Assembly (NCBI GenBank): GCA_037043015.1
Contig: CM073321.1
Coordinates: forward strand, 32,528,101 to 32,592,100
Source of the DNA: Bryum argenteum
Taxonomy: Eukaryota > Streptophyta > Bryopsida > Bryales > Bryaceae
Reading direction: 5' to 3'
Length of the DNA: 64,000 nucleotides
A model generated the notes under the pieces. The model was given only the letters and a program-made list of their open reading frames with translations, was not told the DNA's origin and searched no databases. Made by a program: the position numbers and the translations under genes. Below, one piece after another: positions 3,701-46,000 of the stretch (the stretch's first letter is position 1; each line of letters begins with the position of its first letter).

Positions 3701-3731
3701 CTCGCGCTTGCGGAGAGAGTGGTACTCGGCC

Positions 3732-22571: not shown

Positions 22572-22590
22572 TTTGGCAACCATGCTTACG
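22572..22590 (+). promoter_or_regulatory. Candidate primer-binding site of Gypsy 1
   Basis: Two bases after the LTR comes TGGCAACCATGC, which starts with the TGG expected opposite a tRNA CCA end. I did not identify the tRNA. Confidence 0.5.
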
Positions 22591-22994
22591 TTCTAACCTA
22601 GACTGTCTCTCGGTCCACACTGTATTTAGGAACGCGGTACAAACGGTGCACCGCGAAACTCCTAGCTACCGCCGCTACACCAATTCCCTGTCGCCGCAAC
22701 CTCACCACCTCGGCCAGCAACCTGCAGACTGGAGCGCCAACAAAGCAAATGCTGATAATCTTGGTCACAAAACAGTTGGACCAGCTCAACGGAAAAAGGA
22801 ACAACAAACCCTAGCCGCGCCCTATGTAACGGTCCATCTCAAACTAAAAAATGCAATCTAGATCTGAGATCCAGTCCGGATCCAGATCGGACTCTGACTC
22901 AGCGGTGGGTTTACTCAAACCTGTATTACACTGAAAATAAAGTCTTACACCCTAGTCCTTCCTTTTGTGCACCTCGAACAATTCTCTTGCAGGT

Positions 22995-24609: not shown

Positions 24610-24875
24610 CCGCCTAGGGGCAACCAACCGCCTAAACGGATATTTCCCTGTGCGTTGTGTCAGGCTCTCAAACATCCGACTTACCATTGCCCTATTTTAT
24701 AGGACCCCAAGTTACTCCAGCTGGTTGAGAAACATGAACAGGAAAAGAAGGCCAGCAAGACCTCCGTCGTTATCACCGAACTCCCGGACCCCACTGTCGG
24801 CATCCACACAGTCGCTGCCATTACACGCAGCTAGTCCAACCCAGCTCCTTCTCGACAACCACAACACCCACCACC

Positions 24876-26672
24876 ATGGATTGGACTGAACAAGAGAAGC
24901 TACGAGACCGAATGATTGACGAAGTCCACCGACTCCAAAATCGACCACCAGTCGAACCGACGGTCCCGACCCAGTCGATTGCCAACAAACTTAACTTCAC
25001 TTGGGATGACGATGCCTTGCCACAACAACCAACGTCACCTCGCACACGCAACAGCCACTCTTCCGGCCAAAGCTTACCCGAACCGCCTCAACACTTGGTG
25101 CTTGATCAACTTCATGACTGCAAACTTCAGGTCTCACTTCTTAACCTTCTCCATCTCTCCCCGACACTAACCTCTTTTGTCAAAAATCGACTTGGTTGCA
25201 CTGCAGAGACACCCACAGTTCCACAAGACACCGCCACGATAGCCTCCGCAACCGTCATCGACAAACACATGCTGGTCATCACCGTTTTCATAGGAAAGAA
25301 CAGCGTCGATGACGTTCTCATTGATGGCGGCTCCGGCGTCAACGTTATAACGGAGGAGGAGCGTCGCCGTCTCGATTTAGCCAAATCCGCCCCTGCGCCG
25401 TTCAATTTGAAGATGGCCAATGGCACTATTGCCAAACCCCGAGGCTTAATACGTGACGTTAAGATCCACATCCATAGCATCCCGTATATTGTCACCCTCA
25501 TAGTAATCGACTGCTCAACGGTCAAATCGGATTACTGCATGCTCCTGGGACGCCCCTGGCTCCGGCACGCCAAGGTGATCCATGATTGGGGCAGCAATGA
25601 GGTTCAAATCATGGGAAACAGCACGGTGAAAACAGTCAAGATCAACCGACAACTGGGTTTTGAGGCCGTCACCTCACATGTACTCATATGCTACAATTTT
25701 GCAGATGGAATCACCGACGACGAGGACGCCACCCTCATGGCTTCCGACCCAACACCTCACCCGGTTGGCACGGTGGATTGGGATCACTTTCATACTTCCC
25801 GAGCGACTTCTACGCCAGCCCCCACAGATCGAGTCGACTCGACCGACCCGGCCCATCTCAACATCCCACATACTCCAGGAAGCATGGCAGTGGACGAAAC
25901 GCAAATCCAAGCCAAACATTCTTTCATGGATATCGCCCATTGGAATCACAATGACGAAGACCGCCTCTGCCTCCTAAATGTCGGTACTCCAGCTGACCCT
26001 AAAATTTTGAAAGTCAATGCTAATCTTTCACCGGACTTATTTACGGCCACCGAAGCTTTGTTCCGCGAATTCATCGATGTCTTTGCATTTTCCTACCGAG
26101 ACCTTAGAGGAACCCCGGAGAATGTCGCGACCCATTGCATCGACCTCAACCCCACAATCTCCCCGAGCTACCAAGCCGGCTACCGGATGAACCCGAACCA
26201 CGCGAAGCAGTCAAGGCCGACCTCGAGCGACTCCTGGCCGCAGGTTTCATCGAGCCGGTCGATCAAGCATCCTGGCTCTCCTTGATTGTTGTCGTTCCAA
26301 AGAAGAATGGAAAGCTCCGGATATGCATCGATTTTCGCCGCCTCAACACAGCTACAAAAAAAGACCCCTACCCCCTTCGTTTCACAGACGAGGTCCTTGA
26401 TACAATCATTGGATATGATGCGTATTCATTTATTGATTGTTTTTCAGGGTACCACCAAGTCCGCATCCAGAAGGAGGATCGACCCAAGACGACTTTCATC
26501 ACCAAGTGGGGCGCCTACGTGTGGGTCGTCATGCCGTTCGGATTCAAGAACGCACCCCCGACGTACCAGCGCATCGTCAACCAAATTTTCAAGGAATACC
26601 TCGACAATTTCATGAAACTCTTCTTGGACGATTTTAGCGTCTATAGCGATATCGACACCCATCTTCCCAAAC
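24876..26672 (+). pseudogene. Gypsy 1 protease and N-terminal reverse transcriptase
   Basis: The aspartic protease has VLIDGGSGVNVI and the second-half motif LLGRPWLRHAKVIHDWG, as in many plant Gypsy elements. A frameshift near 26200 leads to RT: VVVPKKNGKLRICIDFRRLN, FIDCFSGYHQVRI, VMPFGFKNAPPTYQRI and the catalytic FLDDFSVYSD. The reading is cut at 26672 by the 11.8-kb element and resumes at 38482-38491. Confidence 0.9.
26663..26672. repeat. Left target duplication of the 11.8-kb element
   Basis: CTTCCCAAAC here and CTTTCCAAAC at 38482-38491. One copy belongs to the RT codons (HLPKLRLVF in the interrupted gene), so the pair marks an insertion duplication of 9-10 bp with one later mismatch. 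Confidence 0.75.
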
Positions 26673-26685
26673 GGACGTTGCTACC

Positions 26686-26733
26686 GTGTGAGCGTTGAGC
26701 GGTGAGCGGTGAGCGGTGAGCGGTGAGCGGTAA
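26686..26733. repeat. Left terminal inverted repeat with heptad array
   Basis: GTGTGAGCGTTGAGCGG followed by further tandem GTGAGCG units up to 26733. The right end carries the same array in inverse orientation. Confidence 0.88.
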
Positions 26734-27153
26734 GATTAAGAATTTTTAGGGCTGAGTTTGTATTTTTAGTAAAAATATTTCTAAAAATAGTTTTTTAGAG
26801 AATTTTGGGAATAATTTTCGAATATTTTTGGGAATATTCGAATATTCTAGACTTATCACCGTGGATTTGGTGACCCAAACCCGTGAAAATAAAGCTTAAA
26901 TTCCCTGAATTTTGTGAGACTTGAGCTACAAAACTCAACAATAAATCACAAATTCTTAAATGTCAAGAGGTTTCTAAGGTAATATTTCTAAGTGAATAGT
27001 ACTCCGAGTTAGACAAATTGGCAAGGTTTGCTGTACATGTAGGTACTGGTATAATAATTTTTAATAAGTTTTGAAAAAATATCACATACAGTGTGGAGCA
27101 CCCAATCATAAGACTAACATGTAGCGTACGTAGATGAGGAGATATAAGGCATT
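26734..27153. other. AT-rich subterminal region of the 11.8-kb element
   Basis: No gene. It contains short inverted motifs such as TTCGAATATT and GAATATTCGAATATTC around 26815-26850. Confidence 0.4.
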
Positions 27154-29109
27154 CTAATCTGTAGCATGGTCGAGGATTCCTCCCTCCAGAATCTTCTTCA
27201 CCTCGTTGAAACTAAGAGTGGCCGCGTGGATGAAGAGGTCAGCATCCGGATCAAATTTGCAAACCAATACCGTGATGAAGTATAGGTGCTTGCACGGTCG
27301 ATATGGATCTCTCCTTCCTAACGTAGAGATTGTGTTTCTTGAACACTGGGCATGAGCAATCTGGGAATTTACTAATTGAAAGTCTATAAACTCCATCCGA
27401 ATCCGACTCCAAGTCTACGATACACCTAAAACCACGCTGCGGGATCATGGTCACCCTCAGAATTCAGGCCTGCATTGACGTGGCAGACTCAATATTCTTC
27501 ATGTGCTTTGAAGTCATAGCTGGAATGCGTTTCATGTTCTTCGATCTTCTTGACCTCGGGAACACGTCCGGCTTCTCCGGGACTGGAATATGCGACAAGT
27601 CTCTTGGTGGGGCAGCATTATTGAAAGTGCGGTTCGTAGGAAGCTGTTTTTTTTGTGGTAGTCGAAAGCCCGCATTCTCCAACGCCTCCATTTCATCACG
27701 TGTAAGGTTAGTCCCTATCTTAACAGGCCATATTGAAGGAATAGGGGGTCTATCCTGGCTTAGAGAGAATGGCTCAATCCACTTGCGACGATGACCCTTC
27801 ACACACTTGTCAATATCATCCGCACAAAAAAAGAACTGATCAATTTTTCTTGGCCCCTCTTGAGGGCGTTGCCATACTCCGGTATAAGTTGGAGCTGCGG
27901 TCGCCTTCCCCTTCTGAATAATTCCGAAGTCACATCTTTTTTTACTCTTTCGCATGATACCCCAACAAGCCTTGGCAGAATTCTCCCTCAAACGGGCAAT
28001 GTGCCACAGCCTCTCGTCTACTTTAGTCTCCTGAACAGCGGTCACACGTTCAATACTAGGTCCAGCAAAAGTGGATGGTAATGCGGGTGACTTATTAACA
28101 GAAATAGATGATCACTGAGCGGGTTAGACTTGCGTCACAGCAAGTCGGATCTCAAAATAGAATATTTTTAACTTTTTAAAAAAAAACATTGTTACTGAAA
28201 AAGATACAAAAAGCAGAATATCATATACTAAAAAAGTAAATATATTTTACAGATTTACTAGACATAACCTCAATTCCGTTAAAATGGCACTATGCCATGT
28301 GCCATTTTGTCACACCAAATTTTACATATGCGCTCACATTTAATGGTGTATTTTGTAATATCACGATTTTTTGATAATATCACTCCTTTATACACATTGT
28401 CACTCATTTTCCATAATATCACCTTGAAATTCTGTTATATCACATGGTTTTTGAACTACAGTATAGTTTTGTTGCGAGACATACTACCTAGTCTACGGAG
28501 GGAGGAAAGCATGTTGTTGGGTTTTACGACTTTGGACGCGGGAAGAGAGTAGGGGGTGGTTCTGAGACTGTGTTCAGGACTAGATGATGGGGGAGGCAGT
28601 TTCGATGATAGTCGACGGGACTGGATGGATGCTTTTCTTTCATCGTCGGATGAATCAGAAATATCAATTCGGACTTCGAGTCCGGGTTCGACCTTGACAC
28701 GAGCAAGAACTGGAACAACTGTGGAGATGGTAGAAGAACTACGAGGAGTGAGGAGAACGGTGGAGGCGTTCATGTCAGACTCTGTCAAGCCGAACAGTCG
28801 ATAGTGTCCGGGCTGTAGCTTATACATTCTACAATTACTCTCTAGGTCGACTGGTTCGACAAGGACGGAGTACTGGACAAGATTAGAGTTTGGATCCAAG
28901 ACATGTTTTTCTAACCAAAGAGAGGACTCATCAAACCCGAAACGAATTGCTAGCCAAGACGGAGTGACTTCAGCCACTCCATCTACCCCCGGAGGATTGC
29001 AGATGGGAGGACTTAACTCTTCAGACCTAATGGCAATGACATCTGCAAGAGGAGGTAAAGGAGTGGAGGATGCCATGATAGACGTAGGCGAAGAAAACAA
29101 CATCAACAA
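27154..29109 (-). pseudogene. SWIM zinc-finger protein, two-exon gene with breaks
   Basis: Exon 1 runs from ATG 29109 or 29076 (MASSTPLPPLADVI) to a donor near 28490 and is followed by an intron to about 28094. Exon 2 reads CWGIMRKSKKRCDFG, FFFCADDIDKCVKG and SIWPVKIGTNLTRDEMEALE, then after a TGA at 27464 the SWIM core DCSCPVFKKHNLY. A one-base shift later comes GRRDPYRPCKHLYFI. Together these supply the CxC...CxH zinc ligands. SWIM fingers bind nucleic acid or protein and occur in Mutator-like transposases and RING/SWIM ligases. The upstream part matches neither as far as I can see. It could be a cargo gene or a relic of the transposase. Divergent from the next gene. Confidence 0.6.
28281..28308. 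repeat. Perfect hairpin followed by ATATCAC repeats
   Basis: AAAATGGCAC, an 8-base loop, then GTGCCATTTT, inside the intron of the SWIM gene. Downstream to 28445 the motif AATATCAC or a close variant recurs about five times. Confidence 0.6.
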
Positions 29110-29626
29110 GTGCGCGGAGAAAGTGAGTCTCAGGTGCGTTTTGAATGTTCAAATACGAGAATTTGGTGTAGGGTATTTGCATAGGTATAGAATACCTATT
29201 AGACGTTATTACTTATAATAAAACAGACAGATACCGGATACTCTGAATTGTGAGCATGATGATTTGAATGCGCATTACCCATAATATTTAAATTATCTGG
29301 ACTGACAGAATGCCATTAAGTAGATACGATTAAAAATATTAGATCCGTCAAAAAAATAAGTAGGTGTAAGATGTGAAGTGACGGCGGCAGTCATTGTCAG
29401 AGATTTAGTTAGATAATAGATGCGATTAAAAGTTAACTTATTTTGGATTGTCAGACACGGTCATAGCGGGATGTTAGGGAATACGCGGTGTCTGATTAGG
29501 GTTTCTTAGCCGCATGGGGAACTTATATAATGGAGTTGAAACTCATAGTTCGACCTCTTCATTTGCAGTGGGATCACTTGGACTCGTTAGGTTGTACGTG
29601 TAATAAGTTATCTCATTGCAAGCAGT
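29110..29626. promoter_or_regulatory. Divergent promoter region between SWIM gene and charged-protein gene
   Basis: About 520 bp separate the two divergent starts. TATATAA at 29524-29530 lies about 97 bp before the plus-strand ATG and is a plausible TATA box for that gene. I see no equally clear box for the minus-strand gene. Confidence 0.45.
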
Positions 29627-32600
29627 ATGGACAAATCCGCTAGCGGTAGTGAGAGAGGAAAGGAGATAGGCCAGAGAAAGAAGAAGCGGAGGGGTGGTAC
29701 GAAGTTTACTAATTCTAATGCGCAGAGGCGGAGTGCTTTGCGGAAGCGCGATGGGAGAAGCTGTAGCGGCGATGATCGAGAGCCATAAGGGTATGACATG
29801 TTGATTGACGATGATGTGCTACCGCCATTCAGGCGGACTATCAAAATGCGATCGCTCAACCTCAACAGTGTCCCGGAGAGTGTCGGGACAGACGAAGCTA
29901 AAGACGAGGAGGAGGAAGGGCGTAGAAGGCAGTTCAGGACATCTAGCGAGACTGTATGCGTGGATGGGGATGACGATGGAGGTGTAGACTCTACAACTGA
30001 GGTAATGATGTAATCTATGTTACAAATATGTTGATATTTGTAAGTGTCAAAATATTACCGAATTCCTTTATGGATTAACATCAACATGTGTTGTCTTCAG
30101 GGTCGCAGAGAATCGGAAGAGGAAGATGATCAATCTAGAGAAGAAGCTGCAATGTTTGTGGAGAAAAGAGTCACTGATATGGCCGAGTTAGCAGAAGCCT
30201 CCACAAATCAGGAGATACAGAATGATGTAGCGGATGGATTTGAGACAAGTGCTGAAGAATTAGAGGAGGTACATGAAAAACCTTACTTCCTGGTTTATTG
30301 GAAGGATCTAGGATTGATTAAGTATACAATCAACGAGAGCCCATTCTTCGGTTCGAAGTGGTTAGAACTTTTCACATTATAGATTTCCATGATATATATA
30401 GAGGCATGACTGTTTCATGGTATAATATTATCGAGTGTGACATGATTCGCATGTGTATGTTAACACAGTCTATCAAGAGTGAGCAGGTAAATGACATGTC
30501 ATAATTTCAGAGTGGCATGAAAGAGTACATGCATATTTTAGCATTCACCTCTAGAGATTAGATATGTTTTCAGGAAACGCAAATGTAGATTACGATTTAG
30601 TAGTATTTCTGAAAGAAAGATGTAAACAACTATTAAATATATATTTGTTCAAATGACGTACATATAAATCATATTCAAAACGATTCCAGTGACTCAGTAC
30701 GGAGAAAATGAATACAATACATAGTGTTGATAAAATTATCCCGGACAAAAGCTGGTACCCGAGCTCACAAGCACCTGACCAGCTATACGAAGTCCGGTCC
30801 CAGCTACCCCCATGGCACGATGTCCGATACCCCCCCCCCCGTAAAGCTGCACGATCGGTCCTGCCGGGTACTGGCGAGGCGGGCCCGGCAAGGCCGGGTA
30901 CCGGCGAAGTTGGCCCGGCTAGACCGGGTACCAGCGAGCTGGCCCGGCGAGACCGGGTACCAGCGAGCTGGCCCGGCAAGCCGGGTACAAGCGAGGCTAG
31001 CCCGGCAAGGCCGGGTACCAGCGAGGCTGGCCCGGCGAGGTCGGGTACCAGCGAGGCTGACCCGGCGAGACCGGGTACCAGCGAGGCTGGCCCGGCAAGG
31101 CCGTGTACCAGCGAGGCTGGCCCGGCTAGGCCAGGTACAACGAGCTGGCCCGGCCGGGTACCAGCCTCCGTCCCTCAGCGACGCTGGCCCGTCCCCGACG
31201 CTGGCCAAACGCCGACCTGCCTCCTCCGCCTCCGCCGACCTGCCTCCTGCGCCGAACGCCGATTTGGGCTGCCTCTTTCGGCGCCGCCCCTTCAGTGCCC
31301 TAGGGGTCGCTGCCTCAAACCAAAGTCTCCGTCTTTAATTTCAAGATTTGATTACAACAAAAGTTCGTGCTATTTTTGAATAGGCCAAAGCAGAAACCGC
31401 CAATGCGCTCGGAAGGCAGTTAATTTTAGTAGAAGCAACAGAACGTTCTGGCAAGATGGGAGGAGTACATTTGATACTGTCAAGTTGTGGGAGGGAGTTT
31501 TTTGATGAGTTTGCACACCATTGCTGTCAAGATATTGCAGGAAGAAGAAATCATGGCGGATCCTTGTAGAGAAAGAGGTGGCAGTGGAAGGAGGCAGTGA
31601 GCACGTCGAAGAAGATTTAGAGAATGTGAGTTCCCAGTCCTCAGAATCAAGTATTTTCGACGAATTTTACAAGGAATTTTACAAGTCGCATGCTCCTGGT
31701 GAAACAATGAAAACCAGGGCGGAGTTGGAGGTGTGGTACTCCAAGAAATTCCTGGTATGTACTGAACAAAGCTTCTTGCTACATCAGATTGAATGTAAAC
31801 CCTAACTTTTGCATTCTGCACCAGATCGATTGTGCACTAAACCTTGTTCAACCCATATGACATAGAATTCGGTGGGAGAGAAAGTAAACGTCATGAACAT
31901 ACTCGAATATGTGAATTCGGTTAGTGCAGGTTGCTGACTCCTCTTCCCTTGGTGTTGTCCCTCTTTGTTGTTGCCGATGAGGGCAAAGCCTCGGTGCTGT
32001 CCTTCTTTGCTGTTGCCGATGAGGGCAAAGCCTCGGTGCTGTCCGTCTTTGCTGTTGCCGATGAGGGCTGCTTTGTGAGTATGCTCGAAGTAGAGCAGGT
32101 TGAGGGCTTGCTTTTGCGTGGATGTCTGGACAGAGGCTGCCGTTTTTGCCTTTTTTTTGCCTTTGTCATTTTTTTCTCCCTGATCTGCATTTTCTTCTTT
32201 TTGCTCGCTGGATCTTGTGGTGTATTTCGGGGAGTGCAGGTGCTGCCTTCTCTTCCCTCGCTGTCGCCCATCCCCGTTGTACCGATGAAGGCCGATGAAG
32301 GCTACTGAGAGCTTCATGGCGGGCCTAAGGCTGTTTCCATATTGCTATTCCCCAGCTTAATGTTAAAGCTTGATGGCTGGCCACAACTTTGGCGTGGTCT
32401 TCGTATTGCACTTTTTGTGGGAAGAGCCGGGAAGCACCCAGACATTCGTGGACGAAAGTCTAGAGGGGGGTGCCCGAGTTTGTCATTTTTTTCTGCCTTA
32501 TCAGCATTTTGGCTCCTCATCGCTCGCTGTTGCACATCCTCGTTGTGCCGATGAAGGCATCTGTGTTCTTCATGGCGGGCTTGAGGTTTTTCGTTACTGC

Positions 32601-33130
32601 TATTCCCCAGCATGCATACGAGAAGCTTGATGGCTGGTCACAATGGTTGCTGGTCGACGCTTTCTTGTTTTTTTTGCTTATGCTGGTTTATTTGTGAATG
32701 AATTTCTTAAAGTGTGAATGAATTTGCTTAATATTAGTTTTATAACAATGCCTGATTTTTTTTTCCGAGTGTTTGATAATTGACTTACCATTGGTTTGGT
32801 GTGATTTTGCAGGTTCCAAAAATGCGAAAAAAAATTGAAAGAGAAGAGGAATCTGATGCAGATAGTGACCTTTCCGCATTAAGAGACAATGTGTTAGCTT
32901 ACGTGGAGTCCCGTCAATTAAACATACCATTGACTTCGGTTCCGGAAACCCCACCCCCTGCCTCACCTGTCCGTCACACTTCGCGTGATGACGTTGATCG
33001 GGTTGCACGGGCGGTTAACATGCGAATCAAAAAGAATGAGGCTGAAGCTAGACTTATTGAAGAGAAAGCATTAGCTAGATTTAAACCCAGACGTTCTTCG
33101 CGACTTGCTAGAAAATTGCAGTCATCTTAA
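29627..33130 (+). CDS. Charged, probably nuclear coiled-coil protein (multi-exon, unrecognised)
   Basis: Exon 1 29627-30001 (MDKSASGSERGKEIG, then basic QRKKKRRGG; in-frame TAA at about 29786). Exon 2 30101-30268 (acidic, ESEEEDDQSREEA, AELAEASTNQEIQND). Then 31541-31754 (FDEFYKEFYKSHAPGETMKT) and 32813-33130 (VPKMRKKIEREEESDADSD to ARFKPRRSSRLARKLQSS, TAA). Exons 1-2 and 31541/32813 join in phase; exon 2 to 31541 does not, so an exon is missing or there is a frameshift. I do not recognise the family. Basic termini suggest a nuclear protein. It lies 140 bp before the ParB-methyltransferase gene on the same strand, so it may be its partner. Confidence 0.5.
30860..31165. repeat. GC-rich minisatellite in intron
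   Basis: About ten copies of a 30-32 bp unit resembling GGGTACCAGCGAGGCTGGCC-CGGCAAGGCC, in the large second intron of the charged-protein gene. A run of 13 C lies just upstream near 30828. Long frames across it are repeat translations. Confidence 0.9.
31948..32070. repeat. 42-bp tandem repeat in intron
   Basis: About 2.7 copies of a unit containing TTGCCGATGAGGGCAAAGCC and TCGGTGCTGTCC, in the intron between 31754 and 32813. A related, diverged stretch (GTGCCGATGAAGGC) occurs near 32545. Confidence 0.8.
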
Positions 33131-33269
33131 TTGTATTGTCGGATGATATGATGAGTTTATCATACACTTATTTTTAAAGCCGATGTTTTTTATTAATTTT
33201 CTCGCATTGGTTATTTGACACATTCTTATTCAGTCTTTGGTGTGTTGTATTTGGTTTCTGGATTGCTAG

Positions 33270-36200
33270 ATGACCTTAGCTCAAGTTCGTACCGATGAAG
33301 ATGACGAAACCAGCCGACAACTTCTTGCTTTTCCACCAACTCGTTTGACCGATGGAGACGAACAATTACATGATAGTGTCGCAAATGTTGAAAATATTTG
33401 CACCGGAGTCCCGGAAGAAAGTCCTTCTGAAACTCAGCGTCATCCTGAAGCCGTGCACGATCATGATCGACTCGATGCGCTTTCAGAAGATGAAGATACT
33501 CCTTTGCCTGGGAGTGTCAACGTTGGAGTCGTCCATATGCCAATGCATCTGCAAAACAAGGACCCCGACTGAAGTGCAAACGAGATGCAAATGCTCCACA
33601 AGAGTGATTCGATTGCAATCATCAACATGTTACGCTACAAACCTGTTAAGAAATCTCGTATGTTCATTCCACTCTGCCGTCTCGTTTGTTATCCGAAGGT
33701 TCGCCCGATTTCAGAACAAGACGTCAGGAAACTAGAGAATGAATTCAACAAAGGGTACCAGAAAGGCGATCGGGTGATGTACGTGTCACCCTTTGATAAA
33801 AAAGGCCGAGAAAAATTGGTTGATGCCGAAGATGCTGTCTGGACGAATCCTCTATGGAAATCAGCTAATGAAGAGTTTGAGAAGTCGCTGCAGTTGGATC
33901 CGGATCTACAACACCTCAGTGACAAGTATTTCTACGTTTACGAAGGCAACCACCGTGTGACGGCGTGGATGCGTCACATAGAGAGGTACCATAAGATGGA
34001 ACCTTCGTGGTACATCTCCGTGGATTGTATCATTCTTGATGCACGAGGACAGAGCAATCTCTTGCTCGACGCTATGAACGATATAAATTGTGAGTATTTA
34101 TTCGATTTTTTTGATTCGCTCAATTTCTATTTTGATTAAGTTCAATGTTTCTCATGTCTGATCTCGCACTGCAGGTCTACTGAACATGACCATGTCGAAG
34201 ACGGTTTGTGTGCAAAATTGCAGCGAATGAGGCAGTTTGGAAAATTGAAACTGGAGGATTTCAAGGATCTGATATCCCCAGAGAATTACAGAATATGCAA
34301 GAACGCTAAGGCAAAAAAAGATACTTGGTATCCTGTAACACTTGACGTTTTCGTAAAGTTCTTATATGCGGTAAGTTGAGTGGAACGTGTTTCAAATGTG
34401 AATGTTTGTATTTGGTTCTTTACATCTTATTAATTTTTTTAAATTTTATACAGAAAAGATTAGCGAAGGCATCTGATGACGTAGAAACAAATTACTACGC
34501 CACCGTACCGAAGGAGAATCAAACAGGACCTGGAGTATGGAGTGCCATGGACAATGCGATCAAAGCAAAGATTAAGGCCATACGTGGCAAAAACTTCGAC
34601 AAGATGGTCGCTGTGGCCAACAACAAACTTGGGAAAATATTTGCGAAGGAGGTAAAGAAAACACCCCTTTCATGTTTTATATGACTCATAATCATGTTTT
34701 ATAACCTGATTCTTACTTATGATTTTCATGTGCAGATTTATTCTCATTACAACAAGAACTTGAAACCCGATATGACAATTGATAGCTTACAAATGGTAGC
34801 CACTACCAATGTTCATTGCGATTTCAAGGGTAAGTGGCTCCAATGGTGGAACTCATCAGACGAGGTTCGACGTTCTTTTTGATTCCCAGGAGAACGTCCA
34901 ATGAAAGATAAAACTTTGATGGCATTCCTACATCGCGCTTCTCTTTGGGCACAGGTAACTTAATGTTTCGTTACGTGTTTTCAAAGTTAGACTTCATATG
35001 GTAATTTGATATTTAACATGTTTTCTTTTTTCACAGCTCGAGCATTCACTTCAAAGTGAATTGCAAAACCTGATTGACAACGAAAACCTCAACATTGAGT
35101 GGTCTAGTGTTGTCCTAAAGCCATCTGAGTATGTGGAGAAGTGGAGGTTGCTCTTATGGGACAAGGCATTCAACAACTATCTTAATCCTAATGCAAGCCC
35201 AAAGTTCAGCAAAGGCTCAGATCTTCAAAAGATTACCGGGGGCAAAGTTACAATTAAGCGGCTTTTATTCCGGTAAGTTTCTAGTTTTGTATTCAATATT
35301 AATAAAATCGGTACAACTTGTTCAATTTTCACAATGTAATTTGTTTACTTTTTTGAAGTTACTTAAAACAAGAGCTTGTTGCCAAGGGAGCATTAGCTTT
35401 GTTCTCCATTCCAATGGAGTTCGAGGACATCTCAGTCACAAATGATATCCGCAGCTTTTTCTCCTCAATTCAACAAGAGCGGTTTCCAAACTCTCAATTG
35501 TCGACCGGTGGATGGTTCCTTGAGTGCGACGACAACTACGTGCACAAGGAGGAGAAGCATCTTCTTCGGAATCTCGCTTCAAACCCAGCTGACTCTGCAC
35601 CGATGGAGATTGACGACGATGACGATGACGACCTATCTATTCTACCAGTCGCGTCTGATGCAATCTCTTCTCCTTCTTCACCTGTTGAAGTGCCCAAGTC
35701 TCGTGCAAACAGGAAGCGACGCAACGCTATTGCGGAGCCTGTTGTTGCACTTGACGAGGATTCCAAAGATATTGCTCCTCCTCCAGAAGACATTGCAGGG
35801 CGAGGAGATGCTGATTTGACTCAGGCGTCAGAGGGAGCGACAAACAATGCAATTCGACGCGGTGCAAGACTGACTCAACTTTCTACGGGTGGACTTACAA
35901 ATGTTGAGTCTCCTCCTCAATCATTGACCGTTGACCACAACTCCCAACAGTCCCCACCTCGCCTCAGCCAGCCGGTATTTGCCAAACGCCCTCTTCCGAA
36001 ACCCACTCACATTGGTAGCAGCTCGTCGTCTAGAATATTGGTGACCCTACCTATGTATCTCGAGAAGGAAAACATTGGAGATTTGGTCCATCACTCATTG
36101 AAGACAGGAAATTGGGATTCGCAAATCCTTGATATCGTTGAGCACATCAAGAAGGTATTATTTCATACATATGTCATTTATAATCTCTCTAAATACGTTT

Positions 36201-37546
36201 TGTACTTGTGAATCTATTAGCGACTATCTAATTTTTCACTTGTATCCCAGATTGGCAAAGACCATAAGTACCCGTGTTCGGCGATGGAGTATCAGCCCAA
36301 GCATCCAGGGATTGATCTCATTTTTGCAGATGCTCCCAAGAACTTGCCTGTACCGGGTGTCTCCAACAGAAATTCATCCTGGAACCAGCGAGACAAAACC
36401 TACTTTGAGAGCCTCTTCGTGTTTGCCGCGTATCATTTGACAGACGTTGGAGCCATTCTTCTGATGCATCCAAAATGTCGTAAAATCGAGCGTAGTCACG
36501 ATTCTCAGTCGCATACATATAGTTTTCGTCTGGTTCGAGACTGGTGGGGGTATAATCCCCTTCCTATGGCCTCTACCGTGCCTAAACTGAAAGGGGTACG
36601 GACCAGATTCTAGTTTCCAATTTCATATTTCATGATTATTGTCTTCTATGCTTCTATGTTAACGTATGTATACTTCTGTTTTGCAGACTCACTGCTTCCA
36701 TATCAAAGTGTATGTTCGGAAAGATTTTTTTCCGAAGTTCCAAACTCGGGAAGTGGCACACGCATACGCGGGTGTGGCAATCGTACCTGATGAGGAAGAC
36801 CACCTCTGTAACTTTGCAGACAAAGGGACATTGCGTTATCGTCCGGATGGTACGCCATGGCGAGGCTCACAAGAGAAAGACCCCTCCTTCATTCAATGTT
36901 TCGTCGATTGTCTCACGGACGATGGAGGTATAGTCTTCGACTGGAGCGCAAGTACAGGTAATGTTTCCGTAAACTCTACATTATAACTCGTTTATACATT
37001 TTGCATTTCTAACGTGGGCATCTGATTTTTTAGGTGCATCTGTGATTGCTTGCGCGCGCTCCAACCGACACCTCATTGCTATAGAGCCTGACGAAGAAAT
37101 CTTTGATGGTGTTCTAGCGGATTACAAGAATGGTCCTCCCAGTGATGAAGAAAGTGGAGAATCAATCCCTCCCGCTGATTATGACTCTGACGAACCGGTC
37201 GTGAAGAAGCCACGAAAGTTCATTGGTGCGTAATACCATCTTGTATATTATTTCTAGATTTTAAAATACATATTTACAAATCAGTAGTATTGACTTTCTT
37301 TGTACTTTTAGGATCGCAGGTCTGAAACAGCGATTGACTCGCAACGCTCATCTCTACAAGAGCCCTCCATCAAAATTCACCCTACCATCGTACGTTGAGC
37401 GTCTTGCTCAAGAGTTTGCTCAAGCTCCATCACCCATTTTGTCTGACACTCCACGTCGATGCTATAGTAATAGTGTGCTTAAGTTTATAGACTTTGAGGC
37501 TGATGAGTGTGATCAGCACTTTAATGGTACTACACCGTCTGCCTAG
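33270..37546 (+). CDS. ParB-like domain fused to amino DNA methyltransferase-like domain (11 exons)
   Basis: Exons: 33270-34089, 34175-34370, 34454-34651, 34736-34829, 34890-34954, 35037-35272, 35359-36154, 36251-36595, 36687-36957, 37034-37225, 37321-37546. All have GT-AG borders and join in phase except the first junction, which is off by one base. Exon 1 holds a ParB-like core (MYVSPFDKKGREKLV, then FYVYEGNHRVTAWMRHIERY). The middle is helical. Exon 7 is an acidic, serine-rich linker with a KRRN-type basic patch. Exons 8-10 read GIDLIFADAPKNLP, YFESLFVFAAYHLTDVGAILL, and GGIVFDWSASTGASVIACAR followed by SNRHLIAIEP. This is the motif IV-to-motif I order of N4/N6 amino methyltransferases. 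About 1,040 residues from ATG 33585. A TGA at 33570 precedes that ATG. Catalytic motifs are atypical. Activity is unproven. Confidence 0.8.
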
Positions 37547-38427
37547 TTTGGGATTTGCTTTCTGATAGGTACTGGACATGGTAGCGCCATACATTCGTAG
37601 TTTACCATGATCTATTACTTATAAACTATCTATATGTGTTTTTCAATATATATGGTTTTATATTTTTATTTATCGTGATTATTGTTTATAGCTTAACCTA
37701 CACTATGTGCTTCAAGTATTACTCTAAGTATCTCAATACAATGTAATCTGAGCCATGATTGCCTTTAATGGTGATGTCAGCCCTAATTTGATGTAACTTC
37801 TTTAACTCCAATTTCAATGCATCGGTGTATCTAAATGTTTAAGTTTAAAACTCAATGCAGACTAAAAGTTCTAGAAGTTTTTTTTCTTTTTTCCATTGGA
37901 GTGATTGAATCTTGCCAATGTTGGTAGGGGCTATAGTCCGGTATTTGTATAGCTCAGGACAGCGGCTTTAAGACGCAATGCAACGCTCAAACGAGGCCGA
38001 GGAGAATCGAACTCGGACCACTACAATGCCACGTATTGACATATATTTCTAACAAGTGTAATAGGAAATTGATGACGTCAGCCCTAATTAGTCTCCAAAT
38101 ATTAAGATCGATAAAATGAACTTATTGATTACTTAAAGGCAATCCACAAGTGGGGGTTTAGATTTTGTATATGATTTGAATTGTATTGGTTACACATGAT
38201 GATGCCAGCCCATAATTTAATTAAATTTTATTTTCACTTGCAAATGTGGATTATTTATGAAATATTGTATGACCTCAACACCATGAAAATAATTGGATTC
38301 AGGACCATATCCACGGTTTTGGGTACTTTTATGCCTATAAAAAAACAATATCAAAATTACAGACCCACCCATTCCATGGTAATAGGGCCATTAACTTTCA
38401 AATTTATTTCTTCTTACCGCTAAAACT
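37547..38427. other. Right subterminal region of the 11.8-kb element
   Basis: AT-rich, no gene. A motif like GATGACGTCAGCCCTAATT recurs three times in the same orientation: 37771-37790, 38071-38090 and 38199-38218 (the last most diverged). Such subterminal repeats often bind the mobilising enzyme. Confidence 0.5.
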
Positions 38428-38468
38428 TTACCGCTCACCGCTCAATGCTCACCGCTCAACGCTCACAC
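38428..38468. repeat. Right terminal inverted repeat with heptad array
   Basis: ACCGCTCACCGCTCAATGCTC continuing to CAACGCTCACAC. Its reverse complement matches the left end for 22 bases before the arrays differ in copy number. Confidence 0.88.
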
Positions 38469-38481
38469 CGGTGGTTTCCCC

Positions 38482-39457
38482 CTTTCCAAACTCCGCCTCG
38501 TTTTTGAACTATGCCGGCATTATGGTGTAAGCCTTAATCCAAAGAAGTGCATCTTCTACGTGCCCTCGGGCGTCATTCTGGGCTACATAGTCGGAAAACA
38601 AGGCAAATTTCCCGACCCCAAAAAAATCCAGGCCCTAGTTGACATGCCGACCCCGACCGATGTCTGCGCAATCCAAACATTCAATGGACTCGCCCAATTT
38701 AACCGTTGCTTCATTAAAAACTACGCTAGCATCATGGAACCCATCACCAGACTTACCCACAAAGGCACACCCTTTGACTGGACACCAGACTGTGAAGCCG
38801 CGTTCCAACTCATCAAGCTGCGATATCAAACAGCCTCCATTCTCATCGGATTTGACTGGAGCTTCAACTTTCACATTTACACCGACGCATCCGACATAGC
38901 AGTTGGCGCCCTGTTGGCATAAATCCCACCGGGAAAATCGACTAGCCCATTGCTTATGCTTCACGCCTCCTCAACAAAGCTGAGAAGAATTATACCACCA
39001 CCGAAAAAGAAGCCCTGGCCATGGTGTACGCGGTCAACAAGTATTGGCACTACCTCCTCGGCAATCGGTTTGTCTCCTTCGTGGATCACCTAGCCCTCCA
39101 GTACATGGTTAATAAACCACAAGTATCGGGCCGAATCGCTCGCTGGCTTCTTCTTTTGATGGAGTTTGATTTTTTAGTGGTTTATAAACGAGGAAAATCA
39201 CATGGTATCGCGGATGCCATCTCACGCAATACAGGAGCCGAACCTGCCATTGGTATTCTCGACCAGCCAATCGATCCCAGCTATTTTCGACCGAACCCGA
39301 CTACCTCGCACTTATCATCGAGTATCTGCAGACCGGTACCTTTCCTCCAACCATGCCCAAGGAAGAAAGGAAACGCCTGGCGAACAAAGCCATCCCCTAT
39401 CAACTCATCGACAATTGACTCCATCGAGTCGGACCCGACAACCGCACCCGTCGAGTC
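38482..39457 (+). pseudogene. Gypsy 1 RT C-terminus and RNase H
   Basis: Continues the RT cut at 26672: LNPKKCIFYVPSGVILGYIVG, then connection and RNase H (FHIYTDASDIAVGALLA), a stop and frameshift near 38920, and the RNase H end LLGNRFVSFVDHLALQYMV with IADAISRN. This confirms that the intervening 11.8 kb is an insertion. Confidence 0.9.
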
Positions 39458-39472
39458 CTGAACCCTAGCAAA

Positions 39473-40730
39473 TTGATATCGATTCTTCGCAAACTTCACA
39501 GGGGCAACTCCGGAGGACACTTCTCCCACGATATCACGATCCGCAAAATTTTGGACGCCTGCTATTGGTGGCCAACACTTCACAAGGACACCATCGACTA
39601 CTGCCGTTGTTGCCAAGAATGTCAGCTCATAGGCGTCCTACCATTCACCGTGTCTTCCAAACTGGTAACCTCCCTCCCAACCGAACCTTTCATGAAATGG
39701 GGCCTCGACTTCATGGGCCCCGTCAAGAAAACTCGCCATACAGACCGCCGCTATATCCTGGTGGCTACCGACTATGCCACAAAGTGAGTCGAAGCTCAAG
39801 CACTCCGCGGCAACACCGCCCAAGAGACAGCCACATTTCTGTACAAGTCAATCCTGACACGTTTTGGTTGCCCACTCCACTTGGTCAGTGACCAAGGTAG
39901 CCACTTTCTCAACTCAACAATCGAAGCACTGGTGGAACATTTCCTTCTCCGCCATACGACATCCACAACCTATTACCCGCAAGGCAACGGTCAAGCCGAA
40001 TCCACCAACAAAATTATTGTGTCGATGCTGCAGAAACTCGTCAACGACAATCGGTCCGATTGGGACGTCCAACTACCGACCGTCCTCCTGGCATACCTCA
40101 CCGCCTTCAAAGTGGCCACTGGCCACTCTCCTTTCCAGCTAGTTTACGGCATCCTTCCACTCATGCCGACCGAATACGTCCTCCCGACGTCTCGATCGAC
40201 CACTTCCAGGGATTCTGATCCAGCCCGAGTATTCACCGCCCGACTAGTCAACCTGGAGCAATTAGACGAGCTCCACCACCACGCCGCAGTACGTACTGGT
40301 CATCAACAATGGAATCGAGCTCAGTGGGCCCACCTACGGGGCAAATCTATTCAGTACAACGTGGGAGACTATGTATTGTGGCACCCCAAAGGTACGAACT
40401 TTCACGCGGGAAAACTCCGTACTCGATGGTTTGGCCCTTTTAGAATCCAGTACCTGTTGCCCAACAACACAGCCTTATTAGTGAGTCGTCACCATCTTGA
40501 TCCCGACCCTGTCATTGTTAACGTCAATAAACTCAAACCGTACAACCTCTTTGTTGGCACCCCATCGCAGACCATTCCACCTGACCCCTTCTCTAAATCT
40601 GAGCTTAAACACTTACAACTGGTTAACGAGGACGAGTCGCCCATTCCAGAGCAATCCACCATCACCATGGCTGGCCTTGAGTTTAAGACCCTTCTAGAAA
40701 CCCACCTCTCATTTTCAAACCCGCTACCCC
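39473..40730 (+). pseudogene. Gypsy 1 integrase
   Basis: The HHCC finger is visible (GGHFSHDITIRKILDACYWW, CRCCQECQ), as is the DDE core: WGLDFMGPV, MVSDQGSHFLN and GNGQAESTNK. A C-terminal domain follows (YNVGDYVLWHPKGTNF, LRTRWFGPFRI). One TGA at 39785 replaces the Trp of the conserved TKWVEA, so it is a single-stop pseudogene here. The product would join element cDNA to chromosomal DNA. Confidence 0.92.
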
Positions 40731-40935
40731 TTTGTCCGTTCATGTCTGCTAACCCTGATCCTCGCTTAAGTAGCGCCCTGTTTAAGCAAGCTTCCCCTTT
40801 TGCATTTTTACCACGCAATCGTTGCTTGCCTCCATCTCTACCGTCGCCGACCTCGCACAGCGCCGCACATGCCCTCTATGTTTTGCGTTCTCATCCGGTC
40901 CGAAGGCGTCGCTCACTTCGTCGGCGTAGCCGGAG

Positions 40936-43900
40936 TTGCCGTTATACATGGACGCTTTCAACGCTGAACCCTACCGACACCACCAGCTCGCGCGCACCAG
41001 TATCACCGCCGCCATTTCGCCCCCGATGTCCGATTTTCGTTCACACTTCCTTTGCCAGCGTCGCTTATGCGGTGCTCTCAAGATTTCTCCCCGTCTACCG
41101 ACAGCCAACCTCGATGGTGCGATGCAAATCACTACTTTGTGCCGCGATGAAGAGTCCCCTCCGCGCATTCGGACGAAGGGCGGTTACTGCAAAGTTCCAA
41201 CGCCAAAGGAGATGAAGCCCTTGTTCGAGTGGAAACAATACGCAATGGGCTACCCGGAGGAAGTCACCTTCATCGCCGCCATCGGTTTGCAAGACTTCCT
41301 CGACCTCGATTGGTACAACCCCTTGCGGGCACCACGGATGATGCTCATTGCGGAGTTCTGCAACCTCGCCGTGTCGAATACCGAGGCGATCACAGATCGC
41401 CTTCGGGGTGTTGACATCTGCATCGACCAAGCTCCTGTCTACGAGGTTCTCCGCCTCCCTTCAACTCCCAATGATTCTCGCCTCGTCCCAAACGAGTTTC
41501 CACCGGGCCGCCTGCAGGAGTACACGAACCCACCAGCGGCGACGGAGGAATACCGCCCAATCATCAGGCTCGACTACAGGCGTTCACCCACGGCCTTTGT
41601 TTAAAACGCAGGGATTCCTACATCAGCCGAGAGGGACTTGAGATTCTCTGCACAGCGGAAGCTTTAGCCGCTCTCGATCCACCAGAGCACTGGAATTGGT
41701 GCAAGTGGATGTTCGAAAACCTTTGCAAAGATATACGCCAAGTGCAGAAGTCCGACACGGCGCTGCTCCCCTCGGCTGAGGTAATCGACAAACTCCTCCA
41801 CTCTTACTTTTCTGAAGATGACGTTCCATACGCGGACTGGATCAGCATGCCGACCATCATCAAGCGCCACCAGGACGAGAACATGCGCAACCGGTACATG
41901 GGACCGGATAATATCGTGGCCCAAGCCGACTGAAGCATGGTTCCAGCACCCGACTCCACGCCACCCCCTAACCAGCCCAGCAGCTCTTCAGCAAGGCCCG
42001 GTCAAGACATGGGTCCCGCAAGCAGCAGTGCTGATGTCGACAACTCCAGTCCACTCGACTCCCCTCAGCCACATGCAGCAAGGAGAACGAGGACCCCACC
42101 CCCAACGAGTGCTACCACTACGCCCGGACCTCTTACGCACGGCAGAAAGAACAAATCGACAGACCCCGCCTCGCAACTGCCCAAGCGCCGTCTGTACAAA
42201 AACAACCTCCCGGTCGGCAAAACAAGCACTGACCCCCGATCGGTCTCAGGATCGGAGTCCGAATCACCTTGTCCCTCGTCGGCGGCCGCTACTCCGACCG
42301 AGACACCCCACGGCCCAGGCCAAGCTTCTCCCGAACGCGCGCCCTGCCCAGACGCAATGGAGATTCGCGGCGCAGCCGACCACGACCACACAGAGCAGAC
42401 CTTCGCGATTCCAACCGCCCCTCTGCCGACGTCCAACGACCAAGTAGATGGTGTTTTTCGCCAAGGGCCAAATATTCAGGTACCAACTTCACCTCGCTAC
42501 CAGCTCGCACTTCAGCAAGCACGCGCCACGTTCTCCGAGTTCAAGTGCGCAATCCTCAAGGCCAAAGAGCAGTTAGCGATGTCTAAGCTCAACTACTCCC
42601 AGGTCGAACGCAAACGAGACAACACTCGACTGGAGAATAGCCGACTTTCGAAGGATAACGCCGCTCTTCGCCAACAGGCCGCCTAGCACACCACCGAACT
42701 CTCCTCTTGGGTCACCAAGGTGGACCAGCTTTAGGCTGAGGTGTTATCTAAGCAACAGGCGACCTCACCGCACCAGGCCACCATCACTCGCCTGCAGGAT
42801 GAACTCACCACCCACGCCACCACCATCACCCACCTCCGCACCGAGAGCAAGCGTTCAACCGCCGAGTGTCACCGCCTCCAACTCATCGTCGACCAAGCGA
42901 CCACGAATTGACAATCCGGCAAGGAAAAATCAGCGAACTGCTTACCTGCAACGAAGCCCTTGAGGTATGCGCCCGTCAACTCCATCAGCTCCGCAGGACT
43001 AAGCGCGACCTCCGCGAACGCGCACGTTCACGCATCAAGCTCCTCAACCACATGTTGCGGGACACCACCAGTCGACTCGACCTCTGCAGTCGACAGGTAT
43101 TGTGAGTCCAAGACACCCGCAAAATCCTTGTTCCCACGGTTTTCGACACTAAGGAGGGATTACTGGAGTCCCCCCATCACACCCCTCCGAAGGCCGTATC
43201 GGATACTACCGACCCTGACTTCGAAGACGACAGTAGCAGTGACGACGAATGTTTTGACGACAACTCCGATTCATCTGGGCTCCATCTTCGCTCTCAGCGC
43301 CCGATAGCCTCCACACGCCGTCGTATGCGCGACGAGGAGACGACTGACAAAGAATCGGAGACCGAAGTGACACCACAACTCACCGACGTACTAGCGACCG
43401 CGATGGCGACGACACCCAGGACGATGATCAACCCGACCCCTCTGGAGCGAAAGAGGACCCCACACCATGAGAGCCGCCCTAGCCGGCGCGTGGCGACAAC
43501 TCCAGCCAGCCTCCACTTCCCAGTCCACCCCGGCCGCAGCATCCCCGGCTCCAACGTCGGCACTCGACTTGTTTCCGACTCAACAGACCCCGACGGCAAC
43601 ACCTGCCAATTCCCCTCGGTCCACGCAAGTAACCGCGGGTGTCGGCCTATCCTCGATATTGCTTGATGATGGGGCCGATGCCTTCACAACCTCTTTCCGC
43701 GTGTCTCCTGACCACGTGGCATTTCAGGCTCCTTGCACCGCGAAACCCATCGACTTTCCACCGGTTGATTTTACTAGCGATCCCGCGCCGCCACAACCAC
43801 TCCGTGTGCACAGGCCCGGTCACCCAGTCGAGGTCCTCTCCTCAGATGAATATCCAAGCCTCCGCTCCCTCCGTCCCGTTCGGACTTCCACGACATCCAT

Positions 43901-43937
43901 CGACCCTCCGGTTCTGACTACAACCCGACGACCATGA
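40936..43937 (+). pseudogene. Gypsy 1 downstream accessory ORF
   Basis: Between integrase and the 3' LTR, on the element's own strand. The first piece (40936-41604) has LQDFLDLDWYNPLRAPRMML, FCNLAVSNTEAITDRLRGVD and VYEVLRLP, which recalls the 'putative plant transposon protein' family (RG-V...LP). Later pieces carry a Ser/Pro-rich linker (41937-42300), a coiled coil (ATFSEFKCAILKAKEQLAMS, TITRLQDELTTHATTITHL) and an acidic Thr/Ser-rich tail to 43937. Several stops and frameshifts interrupt it. The layout matches the two free-standing copies at 14.3 and 18.9 kb. Role unknown. Confidence 0.6.
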
Positions 43938-44132
43938 TCACCAACTCCGGAGCCTACACGTGCTCCACCGACCACTCCCAACAGCTGGGCAAAAGTCGGG
44001 GAGCAACCCATCGCGACCGCCCCCAGGGAGATCTCTCGCCTCTCTCCTCGCCCCCCGTTCGGCGTCCCATTCTTCCATCGACAATCTTGTTGAGACGTCC
44101 ACAGGGGTCTCCGTCGTCCAGAGAGAGGGCAA

Positions 44133-44897
44133 TGTTAACCGCATATTCCTTGAATATTTGTCTTAGCTATCTATATCCAGTAGATATAGATCTTGAGACA
44201 GATACCCGGCGAGGTCGACACTAGTCAGGGATTAATACCCGACTGGTCGACCAACATATGTACAGGTCGACTCGACCTAGTATTGAGTCGACCCTAGTAT
44301 TAGGTCAGACCCCAGTATTATACTGGGTCTCAACCCGTGACTATAAGTAGTCTCTTCTCCTCGGGGAAGGTGTTGTTGTTTTATGAATGCCAATTGTTAT
44401 CCATTGCCAGTAACCCAAGTACTAGTCGACTATTGATACTTGTGACTCACTCTCTTGCTGTAGAGTCGACTTCGCCTTGTTTCGTGCTTCTCTTAGTGTT
44501 TGTTTTACTTCTCTTGACCAATAGCTTAAGTGCGTCCTTATGTATATAAAGACGATCAACCTGGATAGTCGATCGATTATTGAGATCTTGCTACCTTGTG
44601 AGGATCTCTTATTGAGTCGACTCCTGAGTGGACTCCTATACTATGCAGCTCAAGTCTGGAGTCATTGACTCATTTAGATAAAGTTATATAGTACTACTGT
44701 CATTGTTACACTATAGTTACTAAACTAGAGACCATCTGGTCTCCTCTTAAGATTATGAGTCGATTGAATCATTCAGATTCACACAATATCAGGATACTTA
44801 CTGGATTCATACATCAAATCTTCTGGATCTAGTTCTCCCACTATCTTCCTCTAAGTAACTCGTTAAGTGAGTCAACTTCGGAAAAACCCTCTTAACA
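44133..44897 (+). repeat. 3' LTR of Gypsy 1
   Basis: 765 bp, begins TGTTAACCGCATATTCC and ends CCCTCTTAACA. A purine-rich tract (AGAGAGAGGGCAA) lies directly before it at 44120-44132. Confidence 0.92.
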
Positions 44898-46000
44898 TTC
44901 ACATGGTCCGACATGATCACATATGCCCTGGTCAAGGCTGGTAATTCCTTGTCAAACTCCCGAAGAGCTAGCAGTACTGATTCAACTACTTTCACAAACT
45001 TCCTACAATTCTCTTAGAACTCATTGCTTCTAATGGTGTTCCTAACATTCTTTGCCTTTGTTTGCAGCTGGTGACTGTTTTGCGTGTTCCAAAATGTCTA
45101 GACAAACACATGAATCGTTCACCATGTTGTTTAGATGTTGTAGCTTGAACAACCGCTCTGTCAGCAACTAGTTTGTTGCAAATTGAGTGTGAGGTGGTAC
45201 CTTTAGCTGCAGCTTTTGGGAGTACTTCTTGAATAGAGCAAGTGGCCAGTTCGACCCTTTAATAAATGTGCACACTCTTAGCTTGTTCCACCAAATCTTT
45301 AACCCATGCCTTTCTCCCCTAATCTTCTAGAAGGAGGTTTAGAATATGTGCTGCACAACCTTGTCCATACAAGTGACGGTAGTCTATCTGCATCTTCTTC
45401 ACAGCCCCTAACATGGAGCTTGCAGTGCATATCTTAACAATGGTTTTGGGTCCAACTTCCTCTATGTACTTCGCCATTTCATTTGCCACAAAGGCTAAGT
45501 CCTTCTTTTTCCCTGTAGTATCCACAAATCCCAAAAAGACCTCCCACATTGGGCAAGTGAGCATCATGTTTATTAGTAGTCTACTTGTGACATCTGACCA
45601 CCCATCCGAGCATATTGTTCCTCCGTACTTCTGGATGAAAACTTTCGTTTGATCGTCAACCGACTTTTGCCCAGTTGCCTTCGTTCCGTCAAGCATCGTT
45701 GTCCTAATAGCATGATACGAGGGTGGTTGATATCCAACGATACCGGCCTTTGGTGTCGCTTGAACGACACTTATGAATGCTAGATGTTGTACGACACTGA
45801 TTGCAATGTTTGTCTGATAGAAAAATGAGGCCCATTTTGCATCCAAATTTTGCCTAGTGGCAAGATCAGAACTATCCTCCATACTCCTTTGTCCATGTTG
45901 GCGTCCGCTAGAGAGCGTAGATGGCCTTTCTCCTGTGCTGCCATATCTAGCCATGTTAGGGAATGGCATTTGAATAGACCTTAGGTTAGGGGATGACATT
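44898..46000 (-). pseudogene. hAT (DUF659-type) transposase, N-terminal and catalytic part
   Basis: The minus strand reads from about 45999 down: YQPPSYHAIRTTMLDGTK, then YGGTICSDGWSDVTSRLLIN, VGPKTIVKICTASSMLGAVK, and YGQGCAAHILNLLLED. This is the DUF659/RNase H-like core of plant hAT transposases, with the usual D in SDGW and the CAAH block. After 45319 the frame breaks, but KGSNWPLALFKKYSQKLQL and TQFATN remain readable. The Gypsy inserted at 44897/44898; the rest is at 21601-21805. In the family this enzyme excises and reinserts hAT DNA; this copy is dead. Confidence 0.88.

Follow-up and report, generated by a model that had tools for sequence, protein, structure and literature searches.

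What does a gene that joins a ParB-like domain to a DNA methyltransferase do in the genome of a moss? The gene in question lies at 33270-37546 of the window, the 64,000 nucleotide stretch of Bryum argenteum contig CM073321.1 analysed here (C1:32528101-32592100 in the genome searched, which comprises 258.8 Mb in 25 contigs), and a sequence-only reading had described it as an intron-rich fusion gene within a mobile element. That the gene is borne by a DNA transposon and that its product has a methylase fold can together be regarded as nearly certain. Its role is less secure. With confidence evenly divided, we read it as a decayed accessory gene of a land-plant DNA transposon family, the product of which, with its non-canonical and possibly non-methylating methylase fold, would serve in the recognition of transposon DNA or against silencing.

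Similarity between the element in the window and another copy, B, ends at 26673 and 38481. The seven copies for which both ends were found have common termini, GGACGTTGCTACCGTGTGAGCG... at the left and ...CGCTCACACCGGTGGTTTCCCC at the right, with inverted arrays of the heptamer TGAGCGG/CCGCTCA; for an eighth copy the left end was found. Element lengths determined from the end coordinates were 15.6 kb (C), 15.0 kb (D), 14.5 kb (H), 14.3 kb (F), 14.1 kb (G), 11.8 kb (window) and 11.5 kb (B). Target duplications of 10 bp flank six of the seven copies, exact in D, F and H and matching at 9/10 bases in the window, C and G. Defined termini and a target duplication, the marks of a DNA transposon, are therefore both present, and the mobile element proposed in the sequence-only reading can be given exact bounds. 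Mutator-like elements (MULEs) have target duplications of 8-11 bp (PMC6446971), a range that includes the 10 bp observed here. Copy B weighs against this picture, as no target duplication was found at its ends. The flanks of copy B (L031/L032 ends) look by eye like inverted relatives of each other; they look like the outcome of insertion into a palindrome or of rearrangement. A sub-threshold SWIM domain was the sole relevant Pfam match of the transposase-like protein, in which inspection by eye suggests a zinc finger and DDE-like features. Judged from the duplication, the SWIM match and these presumed features, the superfamily is apparently Mutator-like. The transposon interrupts the reverse transcriptase (recognised by eye) of a Gypsy-type long terminal repeat (LTR) element, and because the LTR element was split in this way the two insertions can be ordered in time.

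GT-AG introns and a spliced reading frame were evident on direct reading of 33270-37546, and nine introns are backed in most of 31 aligned rows, comprising the window copy, 29 fetched copies and the second copy in the window. The exon structure originally read from the sequence is real but needs correction, with 10 exons in place of 11: at the supposed intron 34830-34889 most copies have no GT, and the reading frame continues across it. The claim that the frames join does not hold throughout this copy. In the window copy a TGA stands at codon 101 (33570-33572), where four relatives displayed have TGG, and a second at codon 455, within the stretch formerly called an intron; one base of the intron-1 donor has been lost and exon 7 carries small deletions that compensate each other. 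An intact protein is not produced by the window copy, and this copy of the gene is decayed.

It is one copy among many. An exon-by-exon search of the genome yielded at least 40 gene copies including that of the window (40 of 3119 candidates scored). Codons were mapped on the columns of the window copy, inserted bases of other copies being skipped, for the position differences and for the ratio of non-synonymous to synonymous divergence (dN/dS); the mapping was then repeated with inserted bases kept. With native bases read in this way, the frame of copy L004 runs without a stop through all 10 exons (1167 amino acids) and those of copies L007, L009 and L025 from exon 2 to exon 10; every remaining row is interrupted by one or more early stops, ends out of frame or lacks the GTGAGT donor. 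Pairwise differences among 30 copies (codons 111-1168) were 0.073, 0.058 and 0.201 at codon positions 1, 2 and 3, and 0.250 in introns; the lower values at positions 1 and 2 than at position 3 and in introns identify the frame as coding. dN/dS across 15 pairs of six copies, a set that takes in L011 and L018, both with frame faults near the end, was 0.06 in the ParB-like part, 0.08 in the middle, 0.27 in the linker, 0.13 in the methylase-like part and 0.14 in the tail. On these ratios the family is judged to be under purifying selection despite its many broken single copies. dS itself drops along the gene: it is 0.71 for the ParB-like part and 0.24-0.28 towards the 3' end, a gradient that may reflect recombination among copies or gene conversion.

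Relative to the transposase, the gene keeps a fixed position. In copies C and D the transposase-like gene was read at the left side on the minus strand, divergent from the ParB/methylase gene, and a listed transposase copy lies upstream in each of the copies of 14-15.6 kb (C, D, F, G and H). At least 11 of the 40 listed gene copies have a listed transposase 4.6-11.7 kb upstream, divergent in 11/11 cases; the number of pairs expected within 25 kb is 0.58 if evenly spread, or 1.1 allowing for clustering on contig C1. In a second set (149 listed places of ParB type, 15 kb), 15 pairs were divergent, one convergent and one on the same strand, the expectation for divergent pairs being 0.65, or 0.93 with the C1 clustering. 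The transposase domain occurs at no fewer than 150 places in the genome (150 of 1097 candidates scored). Full elements carry the divergent transposase-like gene at the left, then a small accessory gene, gene B, then the ParB/methylase gene; for gene B this placement comes from the window element and copies B, C and D. In the window copy the central DDE-like part of the transposase-like gene is deleted. The open reading frame (ORF) of copy C that matches 26673-28092 is the C-terminal part of that gene, and at locus L043 a start equivalent to 28456-29148 runs into an intact frame of 803 amino acids with a second exon of 487 amino acids; the first exon of gene B was found in L043 too. That the transposon merely carries a host gene which it captured, or which was domesticated, and from which it gains nothing, similar to the passenger of a Pack-MULE, is very improbable on this evidence. 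Plant transposons are known to capture genes in this way (PMC12477816), and the broken window copy would suit a passenger, but purifying selection across dispersed copies and the fixed position relative to the transposase argue against it.

The C-terminal part of the protein contains a motif IV-like element followed by a motif I-like element, the order of N6_N4 methyltransferases that had been claimed for it. Searched with PF01555, the profile suggested for checking that claim, the window's family scored 16-21 bits against a cut-off of 26.7 (E 0.011 for the whole protein and 3.3e-4 for a piece of 60 amino acids), and methylase profiles of PHROG matched at E 4.2e-5 and weaker. The same Pfam profile run against the genome revealed two further families. 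Family 2 (L135 and L136) passes the cut-off that the window's family does not reach, at 31.9 bits and E 1.7e-7; its match to PHROG 67 (E 1.8e-10) extends over both motifs, IV and I. The methylase part of the window's family is 29% identical to that of family 2 and 38% to that of family 3, the exons of both having been joined by eye. Alignment with hhalign of the single family against 79 rows of phage methylases gave Prob 90.8 and E 1.2e-6 over 53 columns at 34% identity, five column-shuffled controls giving Prob <=1.4; the profile of three families against the same rows, run without a shuffled control, gave Prob 97.7 and E 2.5e-12 over 187 columns. The phage rows were obtained from the 77 of 80 fetched loci that have a frame >180 amino acids, together with two phage proteins (79 rows, 71 distinct). 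Profile searches of the PDB yielded unrelated best matches, with the methylase DpnA sub-threshold at E 0.31, behind a dynein light chain at 0.13. Taken with the three-family profile, the homology of the C-terminus to N6/N4 methylases is, at the level of sequence profiles, established.

The N-terminal part is probably a ParB-like fold. GNHR lies at 33945-33956 in exon 1, in the N-terminal position described in the sequence-only reading, and G-N-H-R does not vary among the three families, whose identity to the first aligned row is 42-43%. In the ParB/Srx superfamily a [D/E]GNHR box stands between a strand and a helix. PHROG 1033, "ParB-like partition protein", matched 6/6 members within E <=1, the best at 0.0028 (0.0047 in another search). 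The ParB-like context claimed for the motif draws on these two results. Several others weigh against it: PF02195 gave no match, PDB profile searches gave no ParB chain, families 2 and 3 gave no match to PHROG 1033, and in one member an unrelated Pfam family scores similarly well (E 0.0082); the assignment depends on one weak profile match and a motif. An AlphaFold model of the ParB-like exon alone, from a single sequence, had a mean pLDDT of 37, and the secondary structure around GNHR is taken from that poor model. PHROG 1033 matched 2/30 virus and phage records, a scan from one of which led to two loci. Might both resemblances have arisen by chance in a fast-evolving plant protein? Single-sequence matches are weak and unrelated Pfam families match the ParB-like part at similar E values, but the profile-profile E value of 2.5e-12 over 187 columns of three families, the shuffled controls of the single-family query and the passing score of family 2 refute the suggestion for the methylase half; for the ParB half chance is unlikely, and as an account of the whole protein it is extremely improbable.

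Related places of ParB type number at least 149 in this one genome (150 of 1594 candidates scored; 193 matches listed), the second piece of one split gene having been left out of the count. Contig C1, which makes up 44.1 of the 258.8 Mb (17%), carries 28/40 listed gene copies and 64/149 listed places of ParB type, and may be a repeat-rich or sex-linked chromosome. Loci of family 2 were observed at C4:20498341 (L135) and C7:9878472 (L136), in addition to C4:20514640-20517653.

Two catalytic motifs have been altered. At motif IV position 4, an aromatic residue (Y/F) was present in 77/77 aligned phage rows (two gaps), whereas the 31 rows of the window's family have E in 28, K in two, a stop in one and an aromatic residue in none. 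The S-adenosylmethionine (AdoMet) loop of motif I is FxGxG; its first glycine was found in 79/79 phage rows, and is replaced in the window's family by S (29 rows), N (one) or C (one). In translations of 20 other loci, hand-picked from 143 matches, position 4 of motif IV was acidic in 18, Q in one, V in one and never aromatic. Several of these loci are near-identical, so they do not amount to 20 independent families; as the acid recurs across copies and loci, the change is a conserved feature of most loci read and not the decay of one copy. Phage N6/N4 methylases (PHROG 67, 498 and 3008) have the methylase fold and motif order in common with the moss family, but have an unchanged D-x-P-[Y/F], still begin the motif I loop with its first glycine and are encoded by single reading frames. 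Since 31/31 copies have lost both that glycine and the aromatic residue of the catalytic motif, activity of the window's family as a DNA methyltransferase is, from its motifs, doubtful.

It is rather unlikely that the protein tolerates the altered motif and, as an active methylase of N6-adenine or N4-cytosine, marks the DNA of its own transposon: 31/31 rows of the family depart from the residues found in phages, and 18/20 other loci have an acid at the motif IV position. In favour of such an enzyme, the fold and motif order have been conserved under strong purifying selection, D and P of motif IV are mostly kept, and a sister family retains D-T-P-F. A number of observations weigh against the reading of an altered, non-methylating protein. 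The change to D-x-P-[D/E] would not of itself prove inactivity. The phage rows, which comprise a single Staphylococcus phage protein and otherwise the relatives of one methylase from a Cellulophaga phage, do not represent the whole superfamily. Family 2, in the two loci read, retains a motif IV of canonical type, DTPF, so some members may still methylate; family 2 is a candidate active plant N4/N6 DNA methylase. Finally, a relative in the brown alga Ectocarpus was read by its authors as an enzyme of N4-methylcytosine (4mC) or N6-methyladenine (6mA) (PMC12477816). Methylation by the moss protein, if it occurs, could account for 4mC or 6mA in plants. The wider proposal, made with somewhat less than even confidence, is of a very large transposon-carried ParB-methylase superfamily of several divergent families, most members having a conserved acid in place of the catalytic aromatic residue; it would constitute either a new non-methylating class of recognition or anti-silencing proteins or a methylase of a new substrate. 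Such a superfamily would evolve together with tandem arrays that lie in its elements and vary from copy to copy.

Gene B, the exons of which lie at about 29627-30001 and 30101-30268, in a part ending at 31754 and at 32813-33130, contains those arrays. They are non-coding, and a comparison of five copies, made without a shuffled control, showed that neither the repeat unit nor the number of repeats is constant. GGTACC occurs 8, 11, 10, 4 and 5 times in the gene B stretch of the five copies, twice in the rest of the window element and seven times in the rest of the window; its occurrence tracks the repeat units, for which reason it is regarded as a candidate site. For the reading of an anti-silencing accessory gene, we infer that the protein binds DNA. 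The ParB-like N-terminal domain would bind repeated motifs within the element, the best candidate targets being the gene B arrays or the heptamer arrays at the termini. In the C-terminal domain the methylase fold would persist with D-x-P-[Y/F] changed to D-x-P-[D/E], and on account of this change it is proposed that methylation was lost or directed to another substrate. The benefit to the element would be that silencing by the host is kept away or that its ends are organised for transposition, similar to the action of VANC. As a mechanism, element recognition with silencing escape or end organisation is tentative, falling a little short of an even balance, and it draws on analogy; arrays in which the unit differs between copies may be neutral, which weighs against it. 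A ParB-like domain acting as a nicking nuclease, with a function in transposition or replication of the element and not in silencing, is unlikely: ParB/Srx domains of other mobile elements, including the Bacillus cereus ParB-methylase, are reported to nick DNA (PMC5512222), but the longer elements possess a separate transposase-like gene.

The model for an anti-silencing accessory protein is VANC of the Arabidopsis element VANDAL21, which binds short motifs multiplied as tandem repeats and removes methylation; the repeats lie in the introns of VANB and VANC and upstream of VANA (PMC5735166). VANDAL Mutator-like elements resemble the moss element in having an accessory gene beside the transposase, several genes and copy-variable non-coding tandem arrays. 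VANC differs in being described with DUF1985/DUF287, and its binding and demethylation have been demonstrated (PMC5735166), whereas for the moss family they are proposed from sequence. Should the moss protein counter silencing, it would represent a second anti-silencing system, arisen beside VANC from a protein of prokaryote type.

The sequence-only reading had considered a eukaryotic version within a mobile element to be an undescribed class. This novelty does not hold, because ParB-methylase accessory genes of algal transposons are already in print (PMC12477816). The 21.5 kb Ectocarpus element Sola1-1_Ec32 encodes a ParB-like and N4/N6-methylase protein of 1104 amino acids, and the cases in transposons of green and red algae are credited there to Iyer et al. 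2011 and Petroll et al. 2025 (PMC12477816). Compared by description and not by sequence, the algal and moss proteins are alike in size (about 1100 amino acids), in combining ParB-like and N4/N6-methylase parts, in residing in a large DNA transposon and in lying on the strand opposite the transposase. Prokaryotic ParB-methylase fusions such as Bce_0392 have the domain combination in common with them (PMC5512222). The features of the algal class, a ParB-like and an N4/N6 methylase part in one protein of a DNA transposon, were all found here, the ParB half with less certainty. In contrast to Ectocarpus Sola1, the host is a land plant, the target duplications are of 10 bp, motif IV is D-x-P-[D/E] and at least 149 places of ParB type are listed in one genome. 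What is new is thus the land-plant host, the apparently Mutator-like vehicle, the spread over at least 149 places in one genome and the widespread D-x-P-[D/E], which is under purifying selection in the window's family; ParB-methylase accessory genes are extended from algal transposons to a land plant. No land-plant gene of this kind was found in the literature, as judged mostly by titles and opening abstracts.

The plant-type genome supposed at the outset was supported by one contig (C12, locus L142) carrying, in order, rbcL at 952-2466, tRNA-Arg(ccg) at 2688-2761 and, at 2915-3889, a frame that we take to be accD. The rbcL protein scored 1073 bits to its best PDB chain, 9chz, and 1019 to 1gk8, presumably algal; the order rbcL/tRNA-Arg(ccg)/accD is one that we assume to fit a bryophyte. 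The viral, phage and prokaryote collections searched yielded no close sequence relative. In scans that reach close relatives only, neither the ParB part nor the methylase alignment found any in the viral contig collection, and the methylase alignment found none in the genome contig collection. Among phage records, the methylase part had a best listed E of 0.06 (9e-8 for family 2), while the ParB part had no match in one search and three records at E 9 in another. A viral or recent bacterial origin, considered with scans of this reach, is unsupported. The features of the window are collected in Table 1.

Table 1. Position of the transposon, its genes and the surrounding LTR element in the window.
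Feature	Position	Strand	Remarks
Host Gypsy-type LTR element	21803..44899	+	LTRs 21803-22573 and 44130-44899, 96.5% identical
Left target-site duplication, CTTCCCAAAC	26663..26672	+	Comparison of copy ends
DNA transposon, deletion derivative with ParB/methylase gene	26673..38481	+	11,809 bp; ends match six other copies
Left terminus and 3' part of transposase-like gene (SWIM-like C-terminus)	26673..28092	-	92.6% identical to full-length copy C
Transposase-like gene, 5' part	28456..29148	-	Conserved in copies C and D; ORF read in window
Gene B, small acidic/basic accessory gene	29627..33130	+	Read by eye; aligned in copies B, C and D
Copy-variable tandem arrays, units of 30 bp, 42 bp and about 250 bp	30863..32643	+	TRF and five-copy comparison; candidate binding region
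ParB/methylase gene, exon 1	33270..34089	+	ParB-like domain; TGA 33570-33572; donor one base short
ParB/methylase gene, exon 2	34175..34370	+	Alignment of copies
ParB/methylase gene, exon 3	34454..34651	+	Alignment of copies
ParB/methylase gene, exon 4	34736..34954	+	Spans falsely inferred intron 34830-34889; in-frame TGA
ParB/methylase gene, exon 5	35037..35272	+	Alignment of copies
ParB/methylase gene, exon 6	35359..36154	+	Linker, low complexity
ParB/methylase gene, exon 7	36251..36595	+	Motif IV: DAPK in window copy, DAPE in 21/31 rows
ParB/methylase gene, exon 8	36687..36957	+	Motif I, first half
ParB/methylase gene, exon 9	37034..37225	+	Motif I, second half
ParB/methylase gene, exon 10 and stop	37320..37546	+	Alignment of copies
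Right target-site duplication, CTTTCCAAAC	38482..38491	+	9/10 bases match left duplication
Second ParB/methylase gene copy, heavily degraded	54353..56928	-	78.6% identical to gene at 33270-37546

Rfam yielded 0 matches in the window. Outside the element, direct repeats were observed between 1-1819 and 2481-4316 (73%) and between 4314-6383 and 7898-9976 (77%), along with an identical piece of 279 bp at 1821-2099 and 7619-7897. Two tandem arrays lie towards the right end of the window, one of 31-bp units at 58241-58407 (5.4 copies, 97% match) and one of 184-bp units at 58952-59434 (2.6 copies).

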